Virus record (IMG/VR): IMGVR_UViG_3300005831_000054
Span: 1-28,830 of that record
Reading direction: 5' to 3' (one strand)
From: a virus
DNA: 28,830 bases
In this document: piece by piece, positions 2,443-22,828 of the stretch
Numbering within the stretch: the stretch's first letter is position 1
How the letters are laid out: every line of letters begins with the position of its first letter
Translations under genes and position numbers: made by a program
Notes under the pieces: generated by a model
Told to the model about the DNA's origin: nothing
Database searches by the model: none
What the model saw: only the letters and a program-made list of their open reading frames with translations

Positions 2443-2492
2443 GGGAGAGAGGTTTGGAGGGATGGGGGCGTGGATGCCCTGCGTCAAATGTT

Positions 2493-3872: not shown

Positions 3873-4432
3873 GTCTTTGCGATGTAGCGGCCTTCCTGCA
3901 TGATGGCGTTACGAGAGTTAGGGGCAAAGGTCATCTCGAGGTCGAAGGCGTACCGCTCGCGGATCTCCATGATGCTGTCGAGCTCTTCGGAGTTGGCGGC
4001 CTCAACGCCAGAGGTCGAGACGTAGATTGTGCGCACCTTCCAGCCGAGGTCGTGCAGGATGGTCTGCGACACTTGCAGCTCGTTGAGATACCGCCAGTCA
4101 CTGCATACCACAGTTTCCGGCGCTTGCTCCCCTGGCGTCATTTGGATGGGGCAATAGTAAGCGAGGTTTTTAGCGAAGATGTCCTTGTCGATTGACCGGG
4201 CAAGCCGTCCAGCTGCGACAAGGAAGTCGCGGTTCTTAACCTTGAAGGCCTCGTTGTGAAAGTTGCCCTCGAGGTTGAGGCTCATCAGATAGTCATTGCC
4301 GGCGTCCTTGAGGTAGTCCGCAAAGTTCTGCTTGCGCGAAGGCCTTGTCGCCCATTCGAGGATGCCCGAGGCAAGGGTGTCCTTCCCGGCCCTGGCGTAG
4401 CCGCAGATCAGGACAAGAGTCGGCGCGGCCAT
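3860..4432 (-). CDS. Deoxynucleoside monophosphate kinase-like P-loop protein
   Basis: 190 aa from the ATG. A Walker A loop, GYARAGKD (residues 11-18), follows a hydrophobic strand (APTLVLICGY). A conserved-looking acidic strand VVCSDWRYLNEL and a C-terminal lid region rich in Arg/Glu follow, as in phage dNMP kinases (the T4 gp1-type family) and related adenylate-kinase-like folds. It would phosphorylate dNMPs to supply DNA synthesis. An in-frame GTG at 4453 would add seven residues, but the ATG at 4432 carries the CACCCACGCCC leader typical of early genes here, so I chose it. Lies between the SSB-like gene and a hypothetical gene, in one operon. Confidence 0.78.
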   Translation of the reverse strand: MAAPTLVLICGYARAGKDTLASGILEWATRPSRKQNFADYLKDAGNDYLMSLNLEGNFHNEAFKVKNRDFLVAAGRLARSIDKDIFAKNLAYYCPIQMTPGEQAPETVVCSDWRYLNELQVSQTILHDLGWKVRTIYVSTSGVEAANSEELDSIMEIRERYAFDLEMTFAPNSRNAIMQEGRYIAKTWRL

Positions 4433-4444
4433 GGGCGTGGGTGC
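4433..4444 (-). promoter_or_regulatory. Pyrimidine-rich start leader (dNMP kinase)
   Basis: Transcript-sense sequence GCACCCACGCCC abuts the ATG. It matches the CACCCAC core found before the starts at 5705, 9561, 9946 and 10086. It decides between the GTG and ATG starts of this gene. Confidence 0.4.
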
Positions 4445-4459
4445 TTCAGTCACGGCCGT

Positions 4460-4900
4460 TTAATAGGGGACGTCTTCGGGGTTCGGCAGGTCGTTGACGA
4501 CCGGCTTCTGGGAGCCCTTCGGAAACGAGAGCTTATATTTGTATTGGGCCTTGCCGTTGTATTCGCCATTGGCTTCGCACTCAACGCCGACGAGCAGGGT
4601 CTGGCCGCAAGCGGGTTCGAGGTATTGCAGGTACTCGGCAGGGGTGGCGTCCATACGAATTTCGCTGGTGAATTTGCCGGAGAATTTACCGACGAGCATG
4701 GCGAGCGCCTTGCCGTACTTGGTGGAGAAGTTCTTCGACAGGCAGAAGCCCTTGTCGTCGACGAAGAAGAGGCGGGCGGAGGCCGTGCCGTCTTCCCAGA
4801 CCTTGACCTTGTCGGTTCCCTTGGGGCGGATGAGTTTCAGTTTATAGGTTCCGTTGGTCGAGATGTTCGTCAGCGGGGGGCGTTCGTTGGTGGGTTCCAT
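4460..4900 (-). CDS. Probable single-stranded DNA-binding protein
   Basis: 146 aa, starting MEPTNERPPLTNISTNGTYK, four nucleotides after the exonuclease stop codon. The reading frame continuing upstream is Ser/Pro/Arg shadow sequence. The body looks all-beta (TYKLKLIRPKG, TASARLFFVDDKGF, QTLLVGVEC, KAQYKYKLSFP), compatible with an OB fold. The C-terminus, NPEDVPY, is an acidic tip ending in a hydrophobic pair and an aromatic, which resembles the DDIPF protein-interaction tip of bacterial SSB. It sits in the same operon as an exonuclease and an ERF annealing protein. SSB identity is inferred from fold impression, tip and context. I see no classical SSB signature. Confidence 0.6.
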   Translation of the reverse strand: MEPTNERPPLTNISTNGTYKLKLIRPKGTDKVKVWEDGTASARLFFVDDKGFCLSKNFSTKYGKALAMLVGKFSGKFTSEIRMDATPAEYLQYLEPACGQTLLVGVECEANGEYNGKAQYKYKLSFPKGSQKPVVNDLPNPEDVPY

Positions 4901-4904
4901 GGTA

Positions 4905-5705
4905 TTAGGCGAAGGTAATGGGGGTTGCGGTCGAGGTCGTCTTGACGTCGATGACTTGGATGTCGTCAGGGTAGGCTGGCCAGACGCCGGAGGCGGTGCA
5001 CTCGCGGTAAAGGGTGACGGCCTTCTCGAAGTCGGAGACTGCCCAGGACATGAGCTCGGGACCGATCTCGCAGACGGCCGTGGCAAAGGGCGGCTCCTTT
5101 TCAACGAAGAGGAATCGGAAGCCGAGAGGGCGCTTGCCCGTGGCGAGCTCATAAACGAGGCGATACCAATAGGCCTGTAATGCGTAGCGATAATTGCGGA
5201 TGCTCTTGAGCATGCCGGCGGGCGTTGCTTCGCCTAGGCCCGTGGTCTTGATGTCCCATAGGTAGTCGCCGGCCACCCCATCGATGGCGGCCTTGAGGGG
5301 GATGCCGTTATAGTCGACGTGGTACATCACTTCGGTCTCGTCGAATTCAACGCCGTGCACCTTGAGCGCGTGTCGAGCAGCCGAAGCCACGAGATGCCCC
5401 ATGGCAGACTCTTCCGAGTCGAGGATGGTCTTGCCGGCATTGTGTTCGCAGAAGTCGGACCACATAGCCTTACCCTCTTTTGTCCGGCGATCGCAATCTG
5501 GAGCGGTCGCATAGAGGTCGTCTAAGGTGTGGGGCTCGAGGATGGCAGAATGAACGAAGGTGCCGAAGCGCAAGGCCTTGGTCTCTTCGTGGGGCGTGTT
5601 GATGTAAGCCTGGTAATGGCTAGCGGAAACCAATAGGTGCTTTGCGGCGCTCTGGTTAAGCGCTGGGAAGGCTCGGTATTCTTTGCGGTCGTGGATTTGG
5701 GGCAT
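4905..5705 (-). CDS. PD-(D/E)XK exonuclease, RecE/DUF3799-like
   Basis: 266 aa, starting MPQIHDRKEYRAFPALNQSA. Diagnostic elements of the RecE-type/DUF3799 phage exonuclease are visible: GTFVHSAIL (51-His region near residue 52), KAAIDGV with the catalytic Asp near 142, DIKTT (Asp151/Lys153) and ALQAYWY (Gln177). The enzyme degrades duplex DNA 5' to 3' and leaves 3' single strands for the ERF annealing protein encoded upstream. Earlier in-frame codons give an Arg-rich artefact, and the chosen ATG is preceded by the TTTCCACCCACAC leader. Normal length for the family. It pairs functionally with ERF and the SSB-like protein. Confidence 0.88.
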   Translation of the reverse strand: MPQIHDRKEYRAFPALNQSAAKHLLVSASHYQAYINTPHEETKALRFGTFVHSAILEPHTLDDLYATAPDCDRRTKEGKAMWSDFCEHNAGKTILDSEESAMGHLVASAARHALKVHGVEFDETEVMYHVDYNGIPLKAAIDGVAGDYLWDIKTTGLGEATPAGMLKSIRNYRYALQAYWYRLVYELATGKRPLGFRFLFVEKEPPFATAVCEIGPELMSWAVSDFEKAVTLYRECTASGVWPAYPDDIQVIDVKTTSTATPITFA

Positions 5706-5725
5706 GTTTGTGTGGGTGGAAATTA
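5706..5725 (-). promoter_or_regulatory. Pyrimidine-rich start leader (exonuclease)
   Basis: Transcript-sense TAATTTCCACCCACACAAAC, where the TAA is the stop of the preceding gene. The block CTAATTTCCACCCACAC is identical to the leader of the 121-aa gene starting at 9946. Confidence 0.45.
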
Positions 5726-6079
5726 GAGGGCGGCGTCGTCGTCGCCGGGGTTGGCTTCTTCGACGTGCGCTGAGAGCAGATTGCAAAGGTCGATGGCGTT
5801 GTCGGCGGCTAGGGCTACGCGATCGAGCTGATTGCGGAGGACGCGTTCATGAGCGACGACGGCTTTTAGGCGGTCGTAGATCGGCTTGATGTGGTAAGCC
5901 TCTTCGATGTTATCGGCGTCGAGCAAATCAAGTTCGGCTGCGGCCGCGTTGATTGCGTTGTGCAGGTTGTTCAGATCGTCGGACTGTATGCCTCGAGAGT
6001 CATACAATGTAGGACGAAGGGCGGCGACTTCGCCGGCTAACTGGGTGAGGATGTTCCTCAGGTAATCGCGGTTGGTCAT
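5723..6079 (-). CDS. Hypothetical helical protein (118 aa)
   Basis: Not recognised. Almost entirely helical, with several amphipathic stretches (YLRNILTQLAGEVAALRPTL; LHNAINAAAAELDLLDADNI; RLKAVVAHERVLRNQLDRVA) and an acidic tail ending PGDDDAAL. The pattern suggests a coiled-coil or helical-bundle protein that oligomerises. The start overlaps the stop of the upstream gene (ATGA at 6076-6079). It lies between the exonuclease and ERF genes, so a helper in recombination is possible but unsupported by motif. Confidence 0.65.
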   Translation of the reverse strand: MTNRDYLRNILTQLAGEVAALRPTLYDSRGIQSDDLNNLHNAINAAAAELDLLDADNIEEAYHIKPIYDRLKAVVAHERVLRNQLDRVALAADNAIDLCNLLSAHVEEANPGDDDAAL

Positions 6080-6315
6080 CGGTTAAAGGTAAGTTCTTTA
6101 ATCTCTCCAGTGGGAGCGAGCGTAAAGAATCGGACTTGTGATCGGGCCAGGGACGGGTGCGTCTTGCGCTTCCACAGGCCGAGGTCGGAGAGGTAGTCGG
6201 CGTGCTTGCGGGCGGTCATCTCGACATAGGGGTAGCCGTCGAGGAGCAGAAGCAGGGCGTACTGGCCGGAGACAGTCCGGGCGATGCGTTCGATGCCGGC
6301 GGGGATGGGGGTCAT
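6076..6315 (-). CDS. Hypothetical protein (79 aa)
   Basis: Starts MTPIPAGIERIARTVSGQYA. The start is fixed by an ATGA overlap with the 51-aa gene upstream (6312-6315), and its own stop overlaps the next start (6076-6079). Mixed alpha/beta: a hydrophobic strand YALLLLLDGYPYVEM, then a helix-turn region TARKHADYLSDLGLWKRKTH, then strands VRFFTLAP and GEIKELTF. The middle reads like a small winged-helix fold (helix, recognition helix, wing). Not recognised. Confidence 0.6.
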   Translation of the reverse strand: MTPIPAGIERIARTVSGQYALLLLLDGYPYVEMTARKHADYLSDLGLWKRKTHPSLARSQVRFFTLAPTGEIKELTFNR

Positions 6316-6467
6316 TTGATGGGCTTCCAGACGTTGAGCGAGAAAAGGTATTCCCAGCGCTTGGCGTTGGAGAGTAGGCGGAGGTCGGTGCGTTTGGCTT
6401 CCCAAGGCGTCTGCAGCTTTAGCCCAGGGGTTGCCCGGGCTTCGGCTGCGGACTTGGCCTTAGCCAT
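6312..6467 (-). CDS. Small basic hypothetical protein (51 aa)
   Basis: A short gene supported by its joints. The ATG at 6467 overlaps the end of the 80-aa gene (TAA at 6460-6462), and its TGA overlaps the next ATG (ATGA at 6312-6315). It begins MAKAKSAAEARATPGLKLQT and ends with an aromatic/basic segment (KRWEYLFSLNVWKPIK). Ala/Lys-rich N-terminus, no membrane segment. Not recognised. Confidence 0.5.
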   Translation of the reverse strand: MAKAKSAAEARATPGLKLQTPWEAKRTDLRLLSNAKRWEYLFSLNVWKPIK

Positions 6468-6702
6468 GATTACGGGCTTCCTGCCAGCCATCGAGGGCTT
6501 CGACTAATTCGTCTGGGCCGATGGTCTGAGCGTGGCGGACGCAGTACCAGATGGCGTCGCCGGCCTCGCGCATGGCCTCAAGGCGACCTTCGAGCTGACG
6601 GATGCGGGCGTTGGCGGCCATCAGTTCGTTTTGAGCGTGGGCGTTGGCAATGGCGTTGTTGAGGAAGGCCATCGGGTCGAGGGGGTCGTTGGGGTTGCTC
6701 AT
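6460..6702 (-). CDS. Hypothetical coiled-coil protein (80 aa)
   Basis: Starts MSNPNDPLDPMAFLNNAIAN at an ATGA overlap with the ERF stop (6699-6702). A heptad-like helix covers residues about 15-48 (AHAQNELMAANARIRQLEGR and on), followed by a short C-terminal domain with AIWYCVRH and ELVEALDGWQEA. The upstream in-frame extension is Arg/Pro shadow sequence. Coupled to the ERF gene, it may act with it. Family unknown. Confidence 0.6.
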   Translation of the reverse strand: MSNPNDPLDPMAFLNNAIANAHAQNELMAANARIRQLEGRLEAMREAGDAIWYCVRHAQTIGPDELVEALDGWQEARNHG

Positions 6703-7181
6703 TTGGTCAGGGGGCGAGGGGTCGGGGAGAAGGCAGGGGCAGAGGCTCCGCCTAGGATAGACTGGGAAGAGGCCGCAGAGCGGAAGCCAGAGGCCGCCAC
6801 GGCCCCGTCGTCGTCGAGGTCTACGGAGATACCGCAAGCCGTCTGGATGGACTGACGGCGGATGTAGGTGATAGCGCCGCCAATCTTCTGGGCGTCCAGA
6901 CCCTCGGCCTTGACCATCAGGCGACCGAAGTCGAAGCGCTCACCCGAGGCGTGAAGGAAGGCGGTGTTGACGCCGACCTTGCCCTCTTCGGAGACGAGCG
7001 TCTGGATTAGAGCCAGGTTGTGCTCGAACAGGACGGGCTTGATGGCGTCGAGCAGCGCGTCGAGGGAGACGTAGCGGTTCTTAAAGCCGGGGTTTACTTT
7101 GTTGGCCTTGACGTTGTCGAGCTCAGAAAGCGCGGCGACTAGGTCGGCGGTGGGGGTTTGGGATTTGGGCGTGGTGCTCAT
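6699..7181 (-). CDS. erf: ERF-family single-strand annealing protein
   Basis: 160 aa. The ERF core is clear: NPGFKNRYVSLDALLDAIKP near residues 29-50, LALIQTLVSEEG, then GGAITYIRRQSIQTACGISV near 102-121, followed by the acidic DLDDDG. ERF proteins (P22 Erf type) form rings on single-stranded DNA and anneal complementary strands, which supports recombination, genome circularisation and recombination-dependent replication. The C-terminal 35 residues are Ser/Ala/Pro-rich linker, somewhat shorter than in P22 Erf. It sits in the same operon as the exonuclease, SSB-like protein and RuvC-like resolvase. Confidence 0.9.
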   Translation of the reverse strand: MSTTPKSQTPTADLVAALSELDNVKANKVNPGFKNRYVSLDALLDAIKPVLFEHNLALIQTLVSEEGKVGVNTAFLHASGERFDFGRLMVKAEGLDAQKIGGAITYIRRQSIQTACGISVDLDDDGAVAASGFRSAASSQSILGGASAPAFSPTPRPLTK

Positions 7182-7187
7182 GGGAGA

Positions 7188-7412
7188 TTACTTGTTGCCG
7201 ACTGTGGCCGGGTCGGCGCCGTCGATGATAGCCTTGATGGCCTCGAGCGTAAACTGACGGGTGCGGCCGTCGATGCGGAGGTTGTAGTTGTCGCCGGACG
7301 GGCGGATGGTCGGCGTCAAGAGGCGGGCGACCTTGTTATCCGGGAGAAGGATGTATTGCGTCTTCGGGATGACGCGGATCTCGGCGGTGGAAGTGGTGAT
7401 GTTCTTTTTCAT
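7188..7412 (-). CDS. Hypothetical protein (74 aa)
   Basis: Not recognised. Beta-rich and basic: strands around AEIRVIPKTQYILLP, DNKVARLLTPTIRP and NYNLRIDGRTRQFTLEAIKA, the last looking like a short recognition hairpin followed by a helix. ATG at 7412, with a short C-rich leader (CCCTTTCCCAACCT). Located between the RuvC-like and ERF genes. A DNA-binding role would fit but is speculation. Confidence 0.55.
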   Translation of the reverse strand: MKKNITTSTAEIRVIPKTQYILLPDNKVARLLTPTIRPSGDNYNLRIDGRTRQFTLEAIKAIIDGADPATVGNK

Positions 7413-7427
7413 AGGTTGGGAAAGGGA

Positions 7428-7892
7428 TTAGTTAATAGCACGGCGGGTTGCCGCGTCGAAGATAAGCAATGCGTCGGCAGACCAGAGCGTGACCGACTGC
7501 GTGGGGAAGAGCTCTTGAGCGCGGGCGCGGAGGTGTGCCTTCCATCCTTTGCCGTGGTCCTTCTTCTTGCCCAGGGAATGGGCGGCTTGCCACGCTTGTG
7601 GCTTAACGCGGTGAATGCGCCAACCCATAGCGACGGCAGCGCCGTAGAGGATGCCGTAGTTCTGGGCGAGTCGGGCGATGGATGCCGCAGGGATAAGCGG
7701 GCCGTAGCCGGCGACGGACGGCTCTTCGAGAAAGAGCTCTACGTCCTTTGCCTTGCAGCTGAGTTCCGCGATCAGTTGGCAGACCTCAACATCGGTGCCG
7801 GGCATCTTCTCGCAGGTGACAGGTTCGCCGTCAACCGACCACGCCAGTCCGCCACTTTGGCCGGGGTCGATAGCGACAATCAGGTGCGACAT
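7428..7892 (-). CDS. RuvC-like Holliday junction resolvase
   Basis: 154 aa, normal RuvC length. RNase H-like fold with acidic residues in place: Asp9 in the first strand (VAIDPGQSGGLAW), Glu56/Glu57 in ELFLEEPSV, and Asp140 (with Asp146) in the C-terminal helix SADALLIFDAATRR. A VKPQAW motif (97-101) before a basic segment (GKKKDHGKGWKAH) is typical of phage and bacterial RuvC. It would cut four-way junctions made during recombination or clear branches before packaging. Nine nucleotides separate it from the upstream transglycosylase gene, and the junction contains a TTTTAAC/GTCAAAA dyad. Confidence 0.82.
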   Translation of the reverse strand: MSHLIVAIDPGQSGGLAWSVDGEPVTCEKMPGTDVEVCQLIAELSCKAKDVELFLEEPSVAGYGPLIPAASIARLAQNYGILYGAAVAMGWRIHRVKPQAWQAAHSLGKKKDHGKGWKAHLRARAQELFPTQSVTLWSADALLIFDAATRRAIN

Positions 7893-7900
7893 GCCGAAAC

Positions 7901-7916
7901 TTTTAACGGGTCAAAA
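7901..7916. promoter_or_regulatory. Imperfect palindrome TTTTAAC-GG-GTCAAAA
   Basis: Sixteen bases with 6 of 7 arm pairs matching, spanning the stop of the transglycosylase gene and the leader of the RuvC-like gene. The GTCAAAA arm recurs at 10458-10465 (reverse), 10481-10488 and 10548-10555 (reverse). Possible regulator site. It could be chance at this length. Confidence 0.25.
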
Positions 7917-8349
7917 CCTTTTGCGAACGAAATAAATTGCCCACGCGGATGGCGTAATCGTTGGGGGCGAAGCGACGGGAGACGGAGGCCGACCATCCTA
8001 AGTTCCAGACGACGGCGATTTGCTCAGGGGTTGGGTCGGGCTTGCCGACGCGCACGAAGTTAGCCCTGATCCAGCGGAGGTGAGAGGCGGCGACCATATC
8101 CTGCGCTGTCGCGTCCCGCCACTTAGACCAGGGGAAGCGGTAATGGCCTTCGGCCTTGAGCCGTTCCTCGGCGTCCTTCCAAGCGGCTCGCCCGACCTGA
8201 TACATTCCGCGTTCGCCGGCCTTGCCGATGGCTTTGCGGTTCTGGCCTGACTCGACCATTGCAATGGACTCGAGAAGGGCGGCGTCGGAGGCCGCGGCGG
8301 CGTTGAAGCCGAGGAGCAGCAGGGCGACGATAGAGAAGGGGCGGGTCAT
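7903..8349 (-). CDS. Exported SLT-type transglycosylase/lysozyme-like protein
   Basis: 148 aa, starting MTRPFSIVALLLLGFNAAAA at an ATGA overlap with the preceding gene. Residues 1-20 form a signal peptide (short basic start, hydrophobic core, Ala-rich cleavage region). The mature part begins with the lytic-transglycosylase pattern: LLESIAMVESGQN, where Glu33 would be the catalytic residue, followed by GERGMYQV. Such enzymes cleave peptidoglycan glycan strands. This is a candidate endolysin exported by Sec or SAR-like means. It is unusual that the gene lies in the early/recombination block, 2.5 kb away from the holin. Confidence 0.72.
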   Translation of the reverse strand: MTRPFSIVALLLLGFNAAAASDAALLESIAMVESGQNRKAIGKAGERGMYQVGRAAWKDAEERLKAEGHYRFPWSKWRDATAQDMVAASHLRWIRANFVRVGKPDPTPEQIAVVWNLGWSASVSRRFAPNDYAIRVGNLFRSQKVLTR

Positions 8350-8669
8350 GGTTGCTTGCTTACGTTGTCGTCGTCCCATCCGTTTTTAGCGGCGTTCCAG
8401 TTTTGGACGGATTGCGGGATGCGGTCGGAGTCATTCAATGTTTCCTCAAACTGGAGCGTCGAAGCCATCGCATCTCCGGCCTTGACGATACGCTCGTATT
8501 GATGGGACGGGACGGCGGTGACAAAGGACGATGCGCGAAGCCGCTCGACCTCGGCCTTGAGGCGGGCGTTATCGGCTTCCATGCTTTTAATTTTATCGTT
8601 AAGGTCGGCAAACTTGGCGACAGGGATTAACATCGTCATGTTATGGGCATTGTATGGATACATGGTCAT
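8346..8669 (-). CDS. Hypothetical coiled-coil protein (107 aa)
   Basis: ATG at 8669 overlaps the upstream stop (ATGA at 8666-8669), and its stop overlaps the next start (8346-8349). Residues about 18-48 form a strong heptad coiled coil (ADLNDKIKSMEADNARLKAE and on). The C-terminus is polar and acidic (DDDNVSKQP). No membrane segment. Possibly a coiled-coil partner of the downstream muralytic enzyme or of a neighbouring small protein. Function unknown. Confidence 0.6.
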   Translation of the reverse strand: MTMYPYNAHNMTMLIPVAKFADLNDKIKSMEADNARLKAEVERLRASSFVTAVPSHQYERIVKAGDAMASTLQFEETLNDSDRIPQSVQNWNAAKNGWDDDNVSKQP

Positions 8670-8950
8670 ACGCGTCTTGGGACTTGTGATCCAGCGACCT
8701 CGAAGCCGTCGAGCTCATAGGAGTATTGGATGCCGACCCAGCCACCCGCCGCGACGTATGCCTGGAGCGATTCCTTCACGGCGCCGTCTTCGTGCAGGGC
8801 TTCGTGATAGTGGTTCAGTATCTTCTTCACGTTGGTCGACGCGAGGGCCGTCTTGGCCGAGCAAATGTCCCCGGTCATGATGCGTTCGTTGACCTCGTAG
8901 ATTTCGGCGAGGAGGTTACGCATACCCTCAAGGTGTGAGAAACTGCTCAT
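8666..8950 (-). CDS. Hypothetical protein (94 aa)
   Basis: Starts MSSFSHLEGMRNLLAEIYEV at an ATGA overlap with the 25-aa membrane peptide gene. Helical N-terminal two thirds (VNERIMTGDICSAKTALAST, then a His/Glu-rich helix), ending in strands GWVGIQYSYELDGFEV. A longer in-frame extension upstream is Pro/His-rich shadow sequence. Not recognised. Confidence 0.6.
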   Translation of the reverse strand: MSSFSHLEGMRNLLAEIYEVNERIMTGDICSAKTALASTNVKKILNHYHEALHEDGAVKESLQAYVAAGGWVGIQYSYELDGFEVAGSQVPRRV

Positions 8951-9024
8951 CGGATGAAGAGGGCGGTGGTGATGGCAAGGCCGACCGACAGGCCGACGAT
9001 AAACCAGACGATGCGGGGGCTCAT
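8947..9024 (-). CDS. 25-aa single-span membrane peptide
   Basis: A tiny gene supported by joints on both sides. Its ATG (9024) overlaps the upstream TGA as ATGA (9021-9024), and its own TGA overlaps the next ATG as ATGA (8947-8950). The product is MSPRIVWFIVGLSVGLAITT plus ALFIR: one transmembrane helix with Arg at both ends. Such peptides occur in phages as accessory membrane factors (holin-like or superinfection-related), but no specific role can be assigned. Confidence 0.55.
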   Translation of the reverse strand: MSPRIVWFIVGLSVGLAITTALFIR

Positions 9025-9278
9025 TCTTGGAAGGGGTGGGCGTCTGGGATGATGGCCTTCCCGGAGATGATGGCGTCATTCTGATCGGCGATGCGGGCCT
9101 TGAGCAGTCGGATGTCGGCGGCCTGCTGCTCGATGATACCGCGCTGGATGTCGAGCAGGTCGTCGAGGCGGTCGGCGTAAGCCTTCACGGCGTTGGCGGC
9201 CCGGTGCAGTTCGCAGGCGTAGGCCCAGGGGAAGAGCCACCAGAAGGGCGGCTTGGAGTTCGGTCGGATGATGGTCAT
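9021..9278 (-). CDS. Hypothetical coiled-coil protein with aromatic N-terminus
   Basis: 85 aa, starting MTIIRPNSKPPFWWLFPWAY. The aromatic segment FWWLFPWAYA looks membrane-interfacial. It is followed by a coiled coil covering about residues 30-70 (DRLDDLLDIQRGIIEQQAAD and on). The ATG at 9278 is preferred over one at 9311 because a C-rich leader (CCACCGCCCCTACACACCC) precedes it, as for neighbours. The 9311 start would add 11 residues and overlap the upstream gene. Not recognised. Probably membrane-associated. Confidence 0.55.
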   Translation of the reverse strand: MTIIRPNSKPPFWWLFPWAYACELHRAANAVKAYADRLDDLLDIQRGIIEQQAADIRLLKARIADQNDAIISGKAIIPDAHPFQE

Positions 9279-9303
9279 GGGTGTGTAGGGGCGGTGGGAT
9301 GGG

Positions 9304-9561
9304 TCAGGCATTGCGTTTGTATGGCCCGCGCTTGTTGAGGTTCGACCAGGGTATGGCGGCCAGCGTGATCCAGTTGCGGATGCAACCGACCGAGACGCCC
9401 ATGGCTTCCGCGGCGTCAGCCTGAGACTTGCCGGCGGTGTTCAGGGCGGTCAGCTGCGGGATGACCGAGACGAGCCGACGAGCGGCGTGGGGGAGGACGG
9501 GTCGGGACAGCGTGAGGACGCGATCGCCGGCCTTGATGAATGAGACGGAGGACTGGTTCAT
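9304..9561 (-). CDS. Small helix-turn-helix protein
   Basis: 85 aa, starting MNQSSVSFIKAGDRVLTLSR. A classic HTH lies at residues about 46-66: SQADAAEAMGVSVGCIRNWI (helix, G-V-S turn, recognition helix). It is flanked by a basic C-terminus (NKRGPYKRNA). Likely a DNA-binding regulator or a homeodomain-like/excisionase-type protein. A plausible binder of the repeat-rich region at 10.4 kb, but nothing shows this directly. Its ATG carries the TCTTCCACCCACAAAACAA leader. Confidence 0.7.
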   Translation of the reverse strand: MNQSSVSFIKAGDRVLTLSRPVLPHAARRLVSVIPQLTALNTAGKSQADAAEAMGVSVGCIRNWITLAAIPWSNLNKRGPYKRNA

Positions 9562-9583
9562 TTGTTTTGTGGGTGGAAGATTA
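9562..9583 (-). promoter_or_regulatory. Pyrimidine-rich start leader (HTH protein)
   Basis: Transcript-sense leader TAATCTTCCACCCACAAAAC(AA) directly before the ATG. It shares TTCCACCCACA with the leaders at 5706 and 9947. Confidence 0.42.
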
Positions 9584-9946
9584 GGAAAGAAAGGCAGACT
9601 GGGATTTTGGGCGATACCACTTGCAGACATACTTTGTCTTAGCGCAGCGCCAACGACCGACTTCGACTTCCCCAGATTCGACTGCGTCGTCAAGCAGCTT
9701 GCGAATCTGCGTTTCGCTGACATCAGGTTTTAGCTCAAAGTAATGATGAATCGGGAAGAAGCCTTCGGGCGCCTTAGGCTCTTCCTTTGCAGGGATTTGA
9801 CTCAGCAACTTCTCAAGGGCCGAAACCCTATTCTCAAGGGCTTCGATTTCCTTGCGGAGATTGGTGGTGATTGGTGTGCGGCGAAACTTACGAACAGCCT
9901 GGAGGGAGTTCAAAAGTGCCAGTGGGTTGGTGTGTGTTGTGCTCAT
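9581..9946 (-). CDS. Hypothetical protein, coiled coil plus winged-helix-like domain
   Basis: 121 aa, ATG start. Residues 25-52 form a coiled coil (TNLRKEIEALENRVSALEKL and on). The C-terminal half (FELKPDVSETQIRKLLDDAV, ESGEVEVGRWRC, KYVCKWYRP) reads as a helix-turn-helix with a beta wing. This resembles small dimeric DNA-binding proteins, dimerising through the coiled coil. Function is inferred from pattern only. Confidence 0.6.
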   Translation of the reverse strand: MSTTHTNPLALLNSLQAVRKFRRTPITTNLRKEIEALENRVSALEKLLSQIPAKEEPKAPEGFFPIHHYFELKPDVSETQIRKLLDDAVESGEVEVGRWRCAKTKYVCKWYRPKSQSAFLS

Positions 9947-9963
9947 GGTGTGGGTGGAAATTA
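9947..9963 (-). promoter_or_regulatory. Pyrimidine-rich start leader (121-aa gene)
   Basis: Transcript-sense TAATTTCCACCCACACC immediately before the ATG. The CTAATTTCCACCCACAC core is identical to the exonuclease leader 4.2 kb away. Confidence 0.45.
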
Positions 9964-10086
9964 GCGGTTGCGGTGAACCTTGGCCTTGACGGGCTCGGCG
10001 CCGTTGATGGCGCGGGCCAGTTCAGGACCGCAGAAGGTGACGACGGCGAGCCAGCCGAAGATGATGAGGGCGATGAGGGTTTTCAT
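9961..10086 (-). CDS. 41-aa small membrane or exported protein
   Basis: Starts MKTLIALIIFGWLAVVTFCG, a single hydrophobic helix that could be a transmembrane anchor or signal peptide, followed by a basic polar tail (ELARAINGAEPVKAKVHRNR). ATG at 10086 has the CTCCACCCACGCAC leader, which supports it as a real start. The longer upstream in-frame extension is Ser/Pro shadow sequence. No function assignable. Confidence 0.55.
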   Translation of the reverse strand: MKTLIALIIFGWLAVVTFCGPELARAINGAEPVKAKVHRNR

Positions 10087-10108
10087 GTGCGTGGGTGGAG
10101 AGGGATTA
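10087..10108 (-). promoter_or_regulatory. Pyrimidine-rich start leader (41-aa gene)
   Basis: Transcript-sense TAATCCCTCTCCACCCACGC(AC) before the ATG. It shares TCCACCCACRC with the other leaders. The TAA is the stop of the upstream gene. Confidence 0.42.
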
Positions 10109-10393
10109 GTTATAGAATTTGGCGAAGCGGGCGACGATGACGCGGTGCTCATTGCTTACGCCGTCTACAGGAAGACCGGCCTTAAGGAAGGCCTTGTGAA
10201 CCTTACGACGCACGATGATGGAGGCCTCGCGCATGCAATGTTTGTATTCGTTGTTCCAAAACCAAGCGACGCCGATGTAGGCCTCGGTGCCGATCAGCTT
10301 CTCGTCGGTGAAGAGGATGGCGTCTTGGGCGATTGGCGAAAGGCCGATGAGGTTAATCGCGAAGGGCTTGGTACGGGTCTTGGTGGGCTTCAT
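10106..10393 (-). CDS. Hypothetical protein (95 aa), first gene after the 10.4-kb regulatory region
   Basis: ATG at 10393. Not recognised. Basic N-terminus (MKPTKTRTKPFAINLIGLSP), a central aromatic patch (IGVAWFWNNEYKHCMREASI) and a basic C-terminal half (RRKVHKAFLKAGLPVDG). It is the first gene of the early block, directly downstream of the only repeat-rich non-coding region in the middle of the genome. It would therefore be transcribed first from a promoter there. Confidence 0.6.
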   Translation of the reverse strand: MKPTKTRTKPFAINLIGLSPIAQDAILFTDEKLIGTEAYIGVAWFWNNEYKHCMREASIIVRRKVHKAFLKAGLPVDGVSNEHRVIVARFAKFYN

Positions 10394-10541
10394 GTTCTTG
10401 GTGGTGCCCGAACATCCTCTCTCACGGATTGCATTCCGTCAACATCCTTTACCAAAACTTTTGACGGGCTAGTTTAGGGGGTCAAAAGCCACCCATAGGT
10501 CGCCCATAGGGTACCCCTTTAAAGGCCTCTCCGTGCCCTTC
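10394..10541. promoter_or_regulatory. Repeat-rich intergenic region, probable operator/promoter
   Basis: 148 bp without a credible gene. Visible repeats: direct repeat AACATCCT at 10411-10418 and 10441-10448; between them an inverted repeat ACGGA-N6-TCCGT (10424-10439); an inverted repeat CTTTTGAC-N15-GTCAAAAG (10458-10488); direct repeat CCCATAGG at 10492-10499 and 10503-10510. On the minus strand TTGACG (a good -35 hexamer) is followed 17 nt later by GAGGAT, a poor -10, so promoter identity is uncertain. It separates the lysis genes from the early block. Confidence 0.5.
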
Positions 10542-21867: not shown

Positions 21868-21894
21868 AAAAAAAGGGCCCCTTTCGGAGCCCTT
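21868..21894 (-). terminator. Rho-independent terminator after the major capsid gene
   Basis: In transcript sense: stem AAGGGCTCC / GGGGCCCTT (9 pairs including one G-T), a GAAA tetraloop, then seven T. It begins 19 nt after the capsid stop codon. A textbook intrinsic terminator, probably a partial one that raises capsid mRNA relative to the tail genes. Confidence 0.92.
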
Positions 21895-21913
21895 CGTTTT
21901 CTCGTCAGACCGC

Positions 21914-22792: not shown

Positions 22793-22828
22793 AGGTATGT
22801 TTTAGGTAGGGTGAGGGTTGGGGGAAAG

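Follow-up and report, generated by a model that had tools for sequence, protein, structure and literature searches.

The window analysed here is the whole of IMG/VR virus record IMGVR_UViG_3300005831_000054 (28,830 bases, possibly a fragment), and its minus strand carries all recognised genes. These encode structural and packaging proteins (terminase large subunit (TerL), portal, major head protein and a tail fibre-like protein), replication and recombination proteins (DnaB-like helicase, exonuclease VIII-type nuclease, Erf-like annealing protein and Holliday junction resolvase) and a metallophosphoesterase. No tRNA gene was found in the window, and the count of sigma-70-type promoters was below the shuffled expectation. 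The subject of this study is the short leaders preceding genes of this phage and its relatives. They lack a Shine-Dalgarno (SD) motif, are G-poor and unstructured, and carry a pyrimidine core anchored on the upstream stop codon, and leaders of this kind are common to several phage lineages.

TerL has 197 confirmed relatives in IMG/VR. In GTDB genomes, its relatives show 77% identity (a contig of an Opitutales metagenome-assembled genome, MAG), 73% (Opitutae) and 57% (Verrucomicrobiota), and the nearest named phage is P8625, a Verrucomicrobia phage with a Puniceicoccales host (24% identity). Because TerL relatives occur in these MAG bins and a named phage, if a distant one, points to the same phylum, the phage probably infects freshwater bacteria of the Opitutales, Verrucomicrobiota.

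The heptanucleotide CACCCAC occurs six times in the window, always on the coding (minus) strand (3020, 4437, 5712, 9569, 9950 and 10091). Its total count is not enriched (6 versus 3.7 expected from dinucleotide shuffles). Five of these sites lie at most 25 nucleotides (nt) upstream of a start, positions which make up 3.2% of the window (binomial p = 1.9e-7). The initial annotation had assigned CACCCAC leaders to the starts at 4432, 5705, 9561, 9946 and 10086; the linkage to starts is supported by this p value and four of the five hold, while at 4432 the motif is probably made of codons. It had also pointed to a 17-nt block shared exactly by two unrelated genes, and this block is indeed present: the 17-mer CTAATTTCCACCCACAC has exactly two copies, at 5710-5726 and 9948-9964, one before an exonuclease VIII-type gene and the other before a gene without family match. 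Among the C-rich leaders proposed before 2442, 7412 and 9278, the first two appear non-coding and the third turned out to be a conserved N-terminus. In the window, we distinguish the following stretches.

5706..5722, minus strand: leader TTTCCACCCACACAAAC, between TAA 5723-5725 and ATG 5705 of the exonuclease VIII-type gene; it includes part of the 17-mer copy at 5710-5726.
9947..9960, minus strand: leader TTTCCACCCACACC, before ATG 9946 of a small gene without family match; it overlaps the second 17-mer copy at 9948-9964.
9562..9580, minus strand: leader TCTTCCACCCACAAAACAA, before ATG 9561 of a gene for a small protein with a weak helix-turn-helix match.
10087..10105, minus strand: leader TCCCTCTCCACCCACGCAC, before ATG 10086 of an open reading frame (ORF) of 41 amino acids.
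7413..7427, minus strand: leader TCCCTTTCCCAACCT, before ATG 7412.
2443..2492, minus strand: region of 50 nt from TAA 2493-2495 to ATG 2442 of the DnaB-like helicase gene, with a final stretch that is C/T-rich and without G.
7182..7187, minus strand: TCTCCC, a short leader ahead of the Erf-like annealing gene (ATG 7181); its counterparts in relatives are TCTCTTCCCAC or TCTCCCACC.
22793..22828, minus strand: leader without any G, ahead of the major head protein gene (ATG 22792).
4433..4459, minus strand: region with CACCCAC at 4437-4443, more likely codons of a gene starting at GTG 4453.
9279..9311, minus strand: C-rich stretch, which codes for the conserved N-terminus MPDPSHRPYTP; the gene starts at ATG 9311.

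The starts at 5705, 9561, 9946, 10086, 7412 and 2442 were compared with their counterparts in relatives. An in-frame upstream start is absent or present in a minority of relatives (for 2442, an in-frame ATG or GTG in 0 of 20 rows; for 10086, an in-frame ATG at 10152 in the window and not in other relatives). In addition, leaders of the main families differ in length, and their lengths modulo 3 differ as well. Because the upstream frame mostly lacks a start and lengths do not keep the frame, these six leaders are best read as non-coding. They are kept in relatives, with drift, so that the lack of conservation by which the initial annotation would have been refuted is not seen. The 5705 leader remains G-poor and of the TTTCC[CA]AC type, with variable length; the 9946 leader retains CACCCAC in three relatives (L161, L162 and L164); and the 9561 leader has CACCCAC in 7 of 17 distinct upstream sequences, most of the remaining ones being G-poor variants.

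Two candidates were rejected on their reading frame. At 4432, an in-frame upstream ATG or GTG is found in 44/44 rows (window included), typically 3 or 7 codons off, and a close relative (L083) reads ATG ACC GAA GAA CCC ACG CCC ATG, where its first ATG matches GTG 4453 of the window. CACCCAC is thus probably part of the codons of E-A-P-T-P, with GTG 4453 as the likelier start. At 9278, an in-frame upstream start occurs in 21/22 rows and the peptide MPDPSHRPYxP is conserved in the alignment rows that were printed, giving a start at 9311.

To describe the leaders across relatives we drew on about 160 related contigs, which gave 227 distinct start sites when gaps between 8 and 34 nt were taken. 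Starts were called with a simple codon score and with the help of orthology, and base composition was measured on leaders of 6-45 nt. The initial annotation had called these leaders the opposite of an SD sequence, and their composition agrees: G falls to 9.7% and C rises to 45%, as compared to contig-wide values of 27% and 34%. Of the 227 leaders, 116 are entirely without G, versus 1.5% of length-matched random windows from the same contigs. Predicted folding from -30 to +20 gave a mean energy of -3.6 kcal/mol, as compared to -7.2 for overlapping starts and -11.7 for random windows. The leaders show two marks of SD-independent leaders, the absence of an SD-like purine motif and reduced structure around the start codon. 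At position -3, A was found in 105 and C in 96 of the 227 leaders.

Within these leaders the conserved unit is a core placed at the stop codon. We count 72 leaders with the core T[TC]TCC[CA][AC]C, versus 16.6 expected from dinucleotide-shuffled leaders (maximum 25 in 200 shuffles), and they are spread over 14 gene families, versus 6.9 expected (maximum 11); the strand make-up, which the initial annotation had named as a possible source of C-rich leaders, does not explain them. In leaders of at least 18 nt, the mean offset of the core from the stop codon is 1.8 nt, versus 7.7 for uniform placement (minimum 4.9 in 2000 trials); TTTCCCACC and TTTCCACCCAC are examples of this stop-anchored core. 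Between core and ATG, anything from 0 to 26 nt may lie. Strand bias is strong: TTTCCCAC occurs 48 times on the coding strand versus 5 on the other, and CACCCACAC 29 times versus 0. Long leaders are bipartite, with 81% pyrimidine in the first 8 nt and 40% A plus 36% C in the last 8 nt. In polycistronic stretches the element is thus laid out as a stop codon, a G-poor pyrimidine core close to TTTCC[CA]AC, a CA-rich spacer and the ATG. CACCCAC, taken by the initial annotation as the defining motif, is one form of this core (27 of 227 leaders, versus 11.5 expected). Nor is the element confined to early genes, as first proposed, since the leader of the major head protein gene (22792) is G-free as well.

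The element extends beyond close relatives. Among 2.9 million IMG/VR contigs, the pattern TAATTTCCACCCACAC..ATG was found in 27, mostly at starts of ORFs of at least 85 amino acids. Some of these phages have few or no proteins in common with the window phage: L389 (4), L392 (2) and L393 (none found), the latter with a different TerL family and 49% GC. All three hold further leaders of the same type, for example TAATTTCCACCCAGCACCTACGCAT-ATG twice in L393. A scrambled core of equal composition was found in 1 contig of the same database, before an ORF of only 6 codons. A second database pattern, TAACCTTTCCCACC..ATG, was set aside as it gave mostly unrelated matches away from real gene starts.

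SD use in the probable host was surveyed with one method for all genomes, on ribosomal-protein genes (for E. coli, the ribosomal-protein region). In the probable host family, SD-like motifs precede 5-14% of these genes for most of the members sampled and about 50% for one subgroup; E. coli has 90%, and 20 further members of the phylum range over 22-100%. Leaders in the SD-poor members contain 6-17% G, with C ranging from 27% (in a genome of 50% GC) to 54% (71% GC). As this holds for ribosomal-protein genes of most members sampled, the loss of the SD together with a scarcity of G in leaders is largely a property of the host lineage. In host ribosomal-protein leaders, TTTCCC (20 versus 6.7 expected) and TTCCCAC (10 versus 2.0) were enriched, apparently mostly because of rpsM, and CACCCAC and the loosest core were not. 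S1-domain proteins are encoded by the three host MAGs searched and by all 14 control genomes. CCTCC is present in the sole 16S rRNA found for the family (L198 of G033), which comes from an SD-retaining genome (L291, SD 0.53); no 16S match was found in MAGs of SD-poor members.

Several host sequences deserve mention in their own right. In the SD-poor host family, rpsM has a strongly conserved leader (...GTTCCGACCTCTTTCCCACCTTCCAAACAGCACGGACACC-ATG; L206, L211, L283 and others) which contains the phage core TTTCCCACC; among host ribosomal-protein leaders, it is mainly here that TTTCCCACC stands out. The rpsU (bS21) leader CCCCCTTTCCCTCC...CGCGCACACAC-ATG of G012, G016, G020 and G028 is close to phage leaders and may mark a nearer host group. 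Near nt 1180, the 16S of L198 reads TGGGTGGGAAGGTGGGG, a perfect complement of the CCTTCCCACCCA that a few phage leaders have. bS21 (L312-L341) shows ..YLRKKWDN in most SD-poor members versus ..MLRQRYENM in SD-retaining ones, and bS18 (L342-L371) shows ..NMITMK versus ..NMLLMK in the same comparison, which could bear on anti-SD accessibility. Occlusion of the anti-SD by bS21 or bS18 was rejected as an explanation, as the difference is confounded by phylogeny and two SD-poor members (G023 and G007) carry the other bS21 type.

Taken together, these results suggest, with a probability of about 0.6, that the leaders serve SD-independent initiation matched to an SD-poor Opitutales family, and that the stop-linked core may aid re-initiation. 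Avoidance of G would leave no purine runs that resemble an SD and, in a message of 60% GC, would keep the start single-stranded. The single-stranded pyrimidine/CA leader would be bound, most plausibly via ribosomal protein bS1, by a 30S subunit or by a ribosome just after termination, and from there the subunit or ribosome would move to the nearest AUG. Because the core adjoins the upstream stop codon, it would favour ribosome retention and re-initiation between cistrons.

Several points weigh against this reading. A search of 79 host-family genomes for the exact phage core gave 8 matches, spread over 7 of them, versus 3 for a reversed-pattern control; being about as rare as the control, the core is not simply the normal leader of the host. 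The enrichment of some core variants is marginal by gene family (CACCCAC in 8 families, versus 5.1 expected and a maximum of 8). Leaders from related phages are not independent, the shuffles ignore kinship and the starts come from a simple caller. The host assignment rests on MAG binning and a distant named phage, and phage contigs could be mis-binned. Finally, the part given to bS1 is a step that we infer.

A more specific possibility, which we put forward tentatively, is that a dedicated RNA signal, UAA-UUUCC[CA]AC followed by a CA-rich spacer and AUG, has taken the place of the SD in polycistronic mRNAs of phages with Opitutales-type hosts. Such a signal would hold the terminating ribosome or the 30S subunit and drive re-initiation, and would have spread or converged across unrelated phages.

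A rival reading, in our view rather doubtful, is an origin in composition alone. An SD-less host would need only a G-free, unstructured leader, a C-rich strand would make such leaders C-rich, and the motifs would be drifted inherited copies with no core recognised. Leaders of the host family do track genome GC in their bases (C 0.27 at 50%, 0.54 at 71%) with G always low, phage leaders are unstructured, and core enrichment by gene family is modest for some variants. Nevertheless, the core exceeds its frequency in dinucleotide-shuffled leaders (72 versus 16.6, and 14 families versus 6.9), sits at the stop codon and not anywhere in the leader, and recurs in near-unrelated phages, one at 49% GC, where a scramble of equal composition does not.

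It is unlikely that an RNA-binding protein other than S1, encoded by phage or host, reads the core and regulates the gene set. The element is phage-enriched, has a single orientation, precedes unrelated genes and is uncommon in the host, as such a protein would have it. However, it drifts among C, T and A at variable distance from the ATG, unlike a tight protein site, and its presence in phages with almost no common genes makes a shared phage-encoded reader improbable. A site acting at the DNA level, whether bound by a repressor in the manner of a stoperator or serving transcription and lodged in the sole non-coding gaps, seems very unlikely: mycobacteriophage stoperators are also multiple short asymmetric sites across the genome (PMC9283540), but here the core keeps to the stop codon, G is shunned all along the leader, spacer included, and ribosomal-protein genes of the host are likewise SD-less with G-poor leaders. 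The least credible of these explanations is pairing of the CCTTCCCACC form with 16S GGTGGGAAGG (around nt 1180) in place of SD pairing, for although the sole family 16S (L198 of G033) has a perfect complement and the mean longest leader match is 7.6 versus 7.0 in mononucleotide-shuffled leaders (a mononucleotide control only), the commonest core TTTCCCA mismatches where CTTCCCA would match and is nevertheless the commoner (29 versus 17 leaders), and the member that provided the 16S keeps an SD in about half of its ribosomal-protein genes. This 16S stretch is, moreover, largely paired within the 30S head, which counts against such pairing as well.

Other features of the window lie outside these leaders. 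A long intergenic region (10394-10541, minus strand) upstream of the gene at 10393 has an inverted repeat TTTTGAC ... GTCAAAA near 10459-10487, and a similar TTTTGACCCGTTAAAAG block, well kept in relatives, lies upstream of 7892; both are possibly promoters or operators. Downstream of the major head protein gene, GGGCTCCGAAAGGGGCCCTTTTTTT (about 21868-21895, minus strand) resembles an intrinsic terminator.

How ribosomes find starts without an SD is unsolved in several phyla, the best studied case being the A-rich one of Bacteroidota. SD-independent initiation of the kind favoured here would add a GC-rich lineage and its phages, which appear to use G-free C/T/CA leaders for SD-less starts. A family with both SD-retaining and SD-poor members offers a natural before-and-after comparison. 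For annotation, start prediction which expects an SD may misplace starts in a large group of environmental phages. A search of the openly accessible literature gave no paper dealing with this phage group or with C-rich leaders.

Some Verrucomicrobia, including Akkermansia and IMCC26134, are SD-scarce with CCUCC conserved (PMC10783764), and this is the phylum of the probable host. That study reports the scarcity; the term C-rich is absent from it and we found there no treatment of phage leaders. The A-rich, Kozak-like initiation of Flavobacterium johnsoniae and other Bacteroidota (PMC6847099) is alike in the absence of an SD, in low structure at the start and in frequent A at -3, and reliance on accessibility and on single-strand binding by the 30S, most plausibly via bS1, has been discussed for it. 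The phage leaders differ from this A-rich description in being C/T-rich and then CA-rich, near G-free at 60% GC and provided with a stop-anchored core, and they belong to another phylum.

Among phage elements, Cluster A stoperators share the multiple short asymmetric sites over the genome; they are DNA sites bound by a repressor and terminating transcription (PMC9283540), and, with no search aimed at a repressor or integrase, nothing in the phage leaders points to DNA binding. The closest phage precedent we found for start-linked repeats before unrelated genes is the SAS of Cluster K mycobacteriophages (PMC3203893), which are also short, asymmetric, in one orientation before the ATG of unrelated genes and nearly absent from the host genome. 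In contrast to the leaders described here, SAS have an SD core AGGAG and a tight 13-bp consensus 3-7 bp from the start, and are confined to the non-structural half. The phage element has no AGGAG, shows a loose consensus with 0 to 26 nt between core and ATG, and is anchored on the upstream stop codon. It would work like SD-independent leaders, yet is neither of the Bacteroidota Kozak-like type nor of the SAS type.

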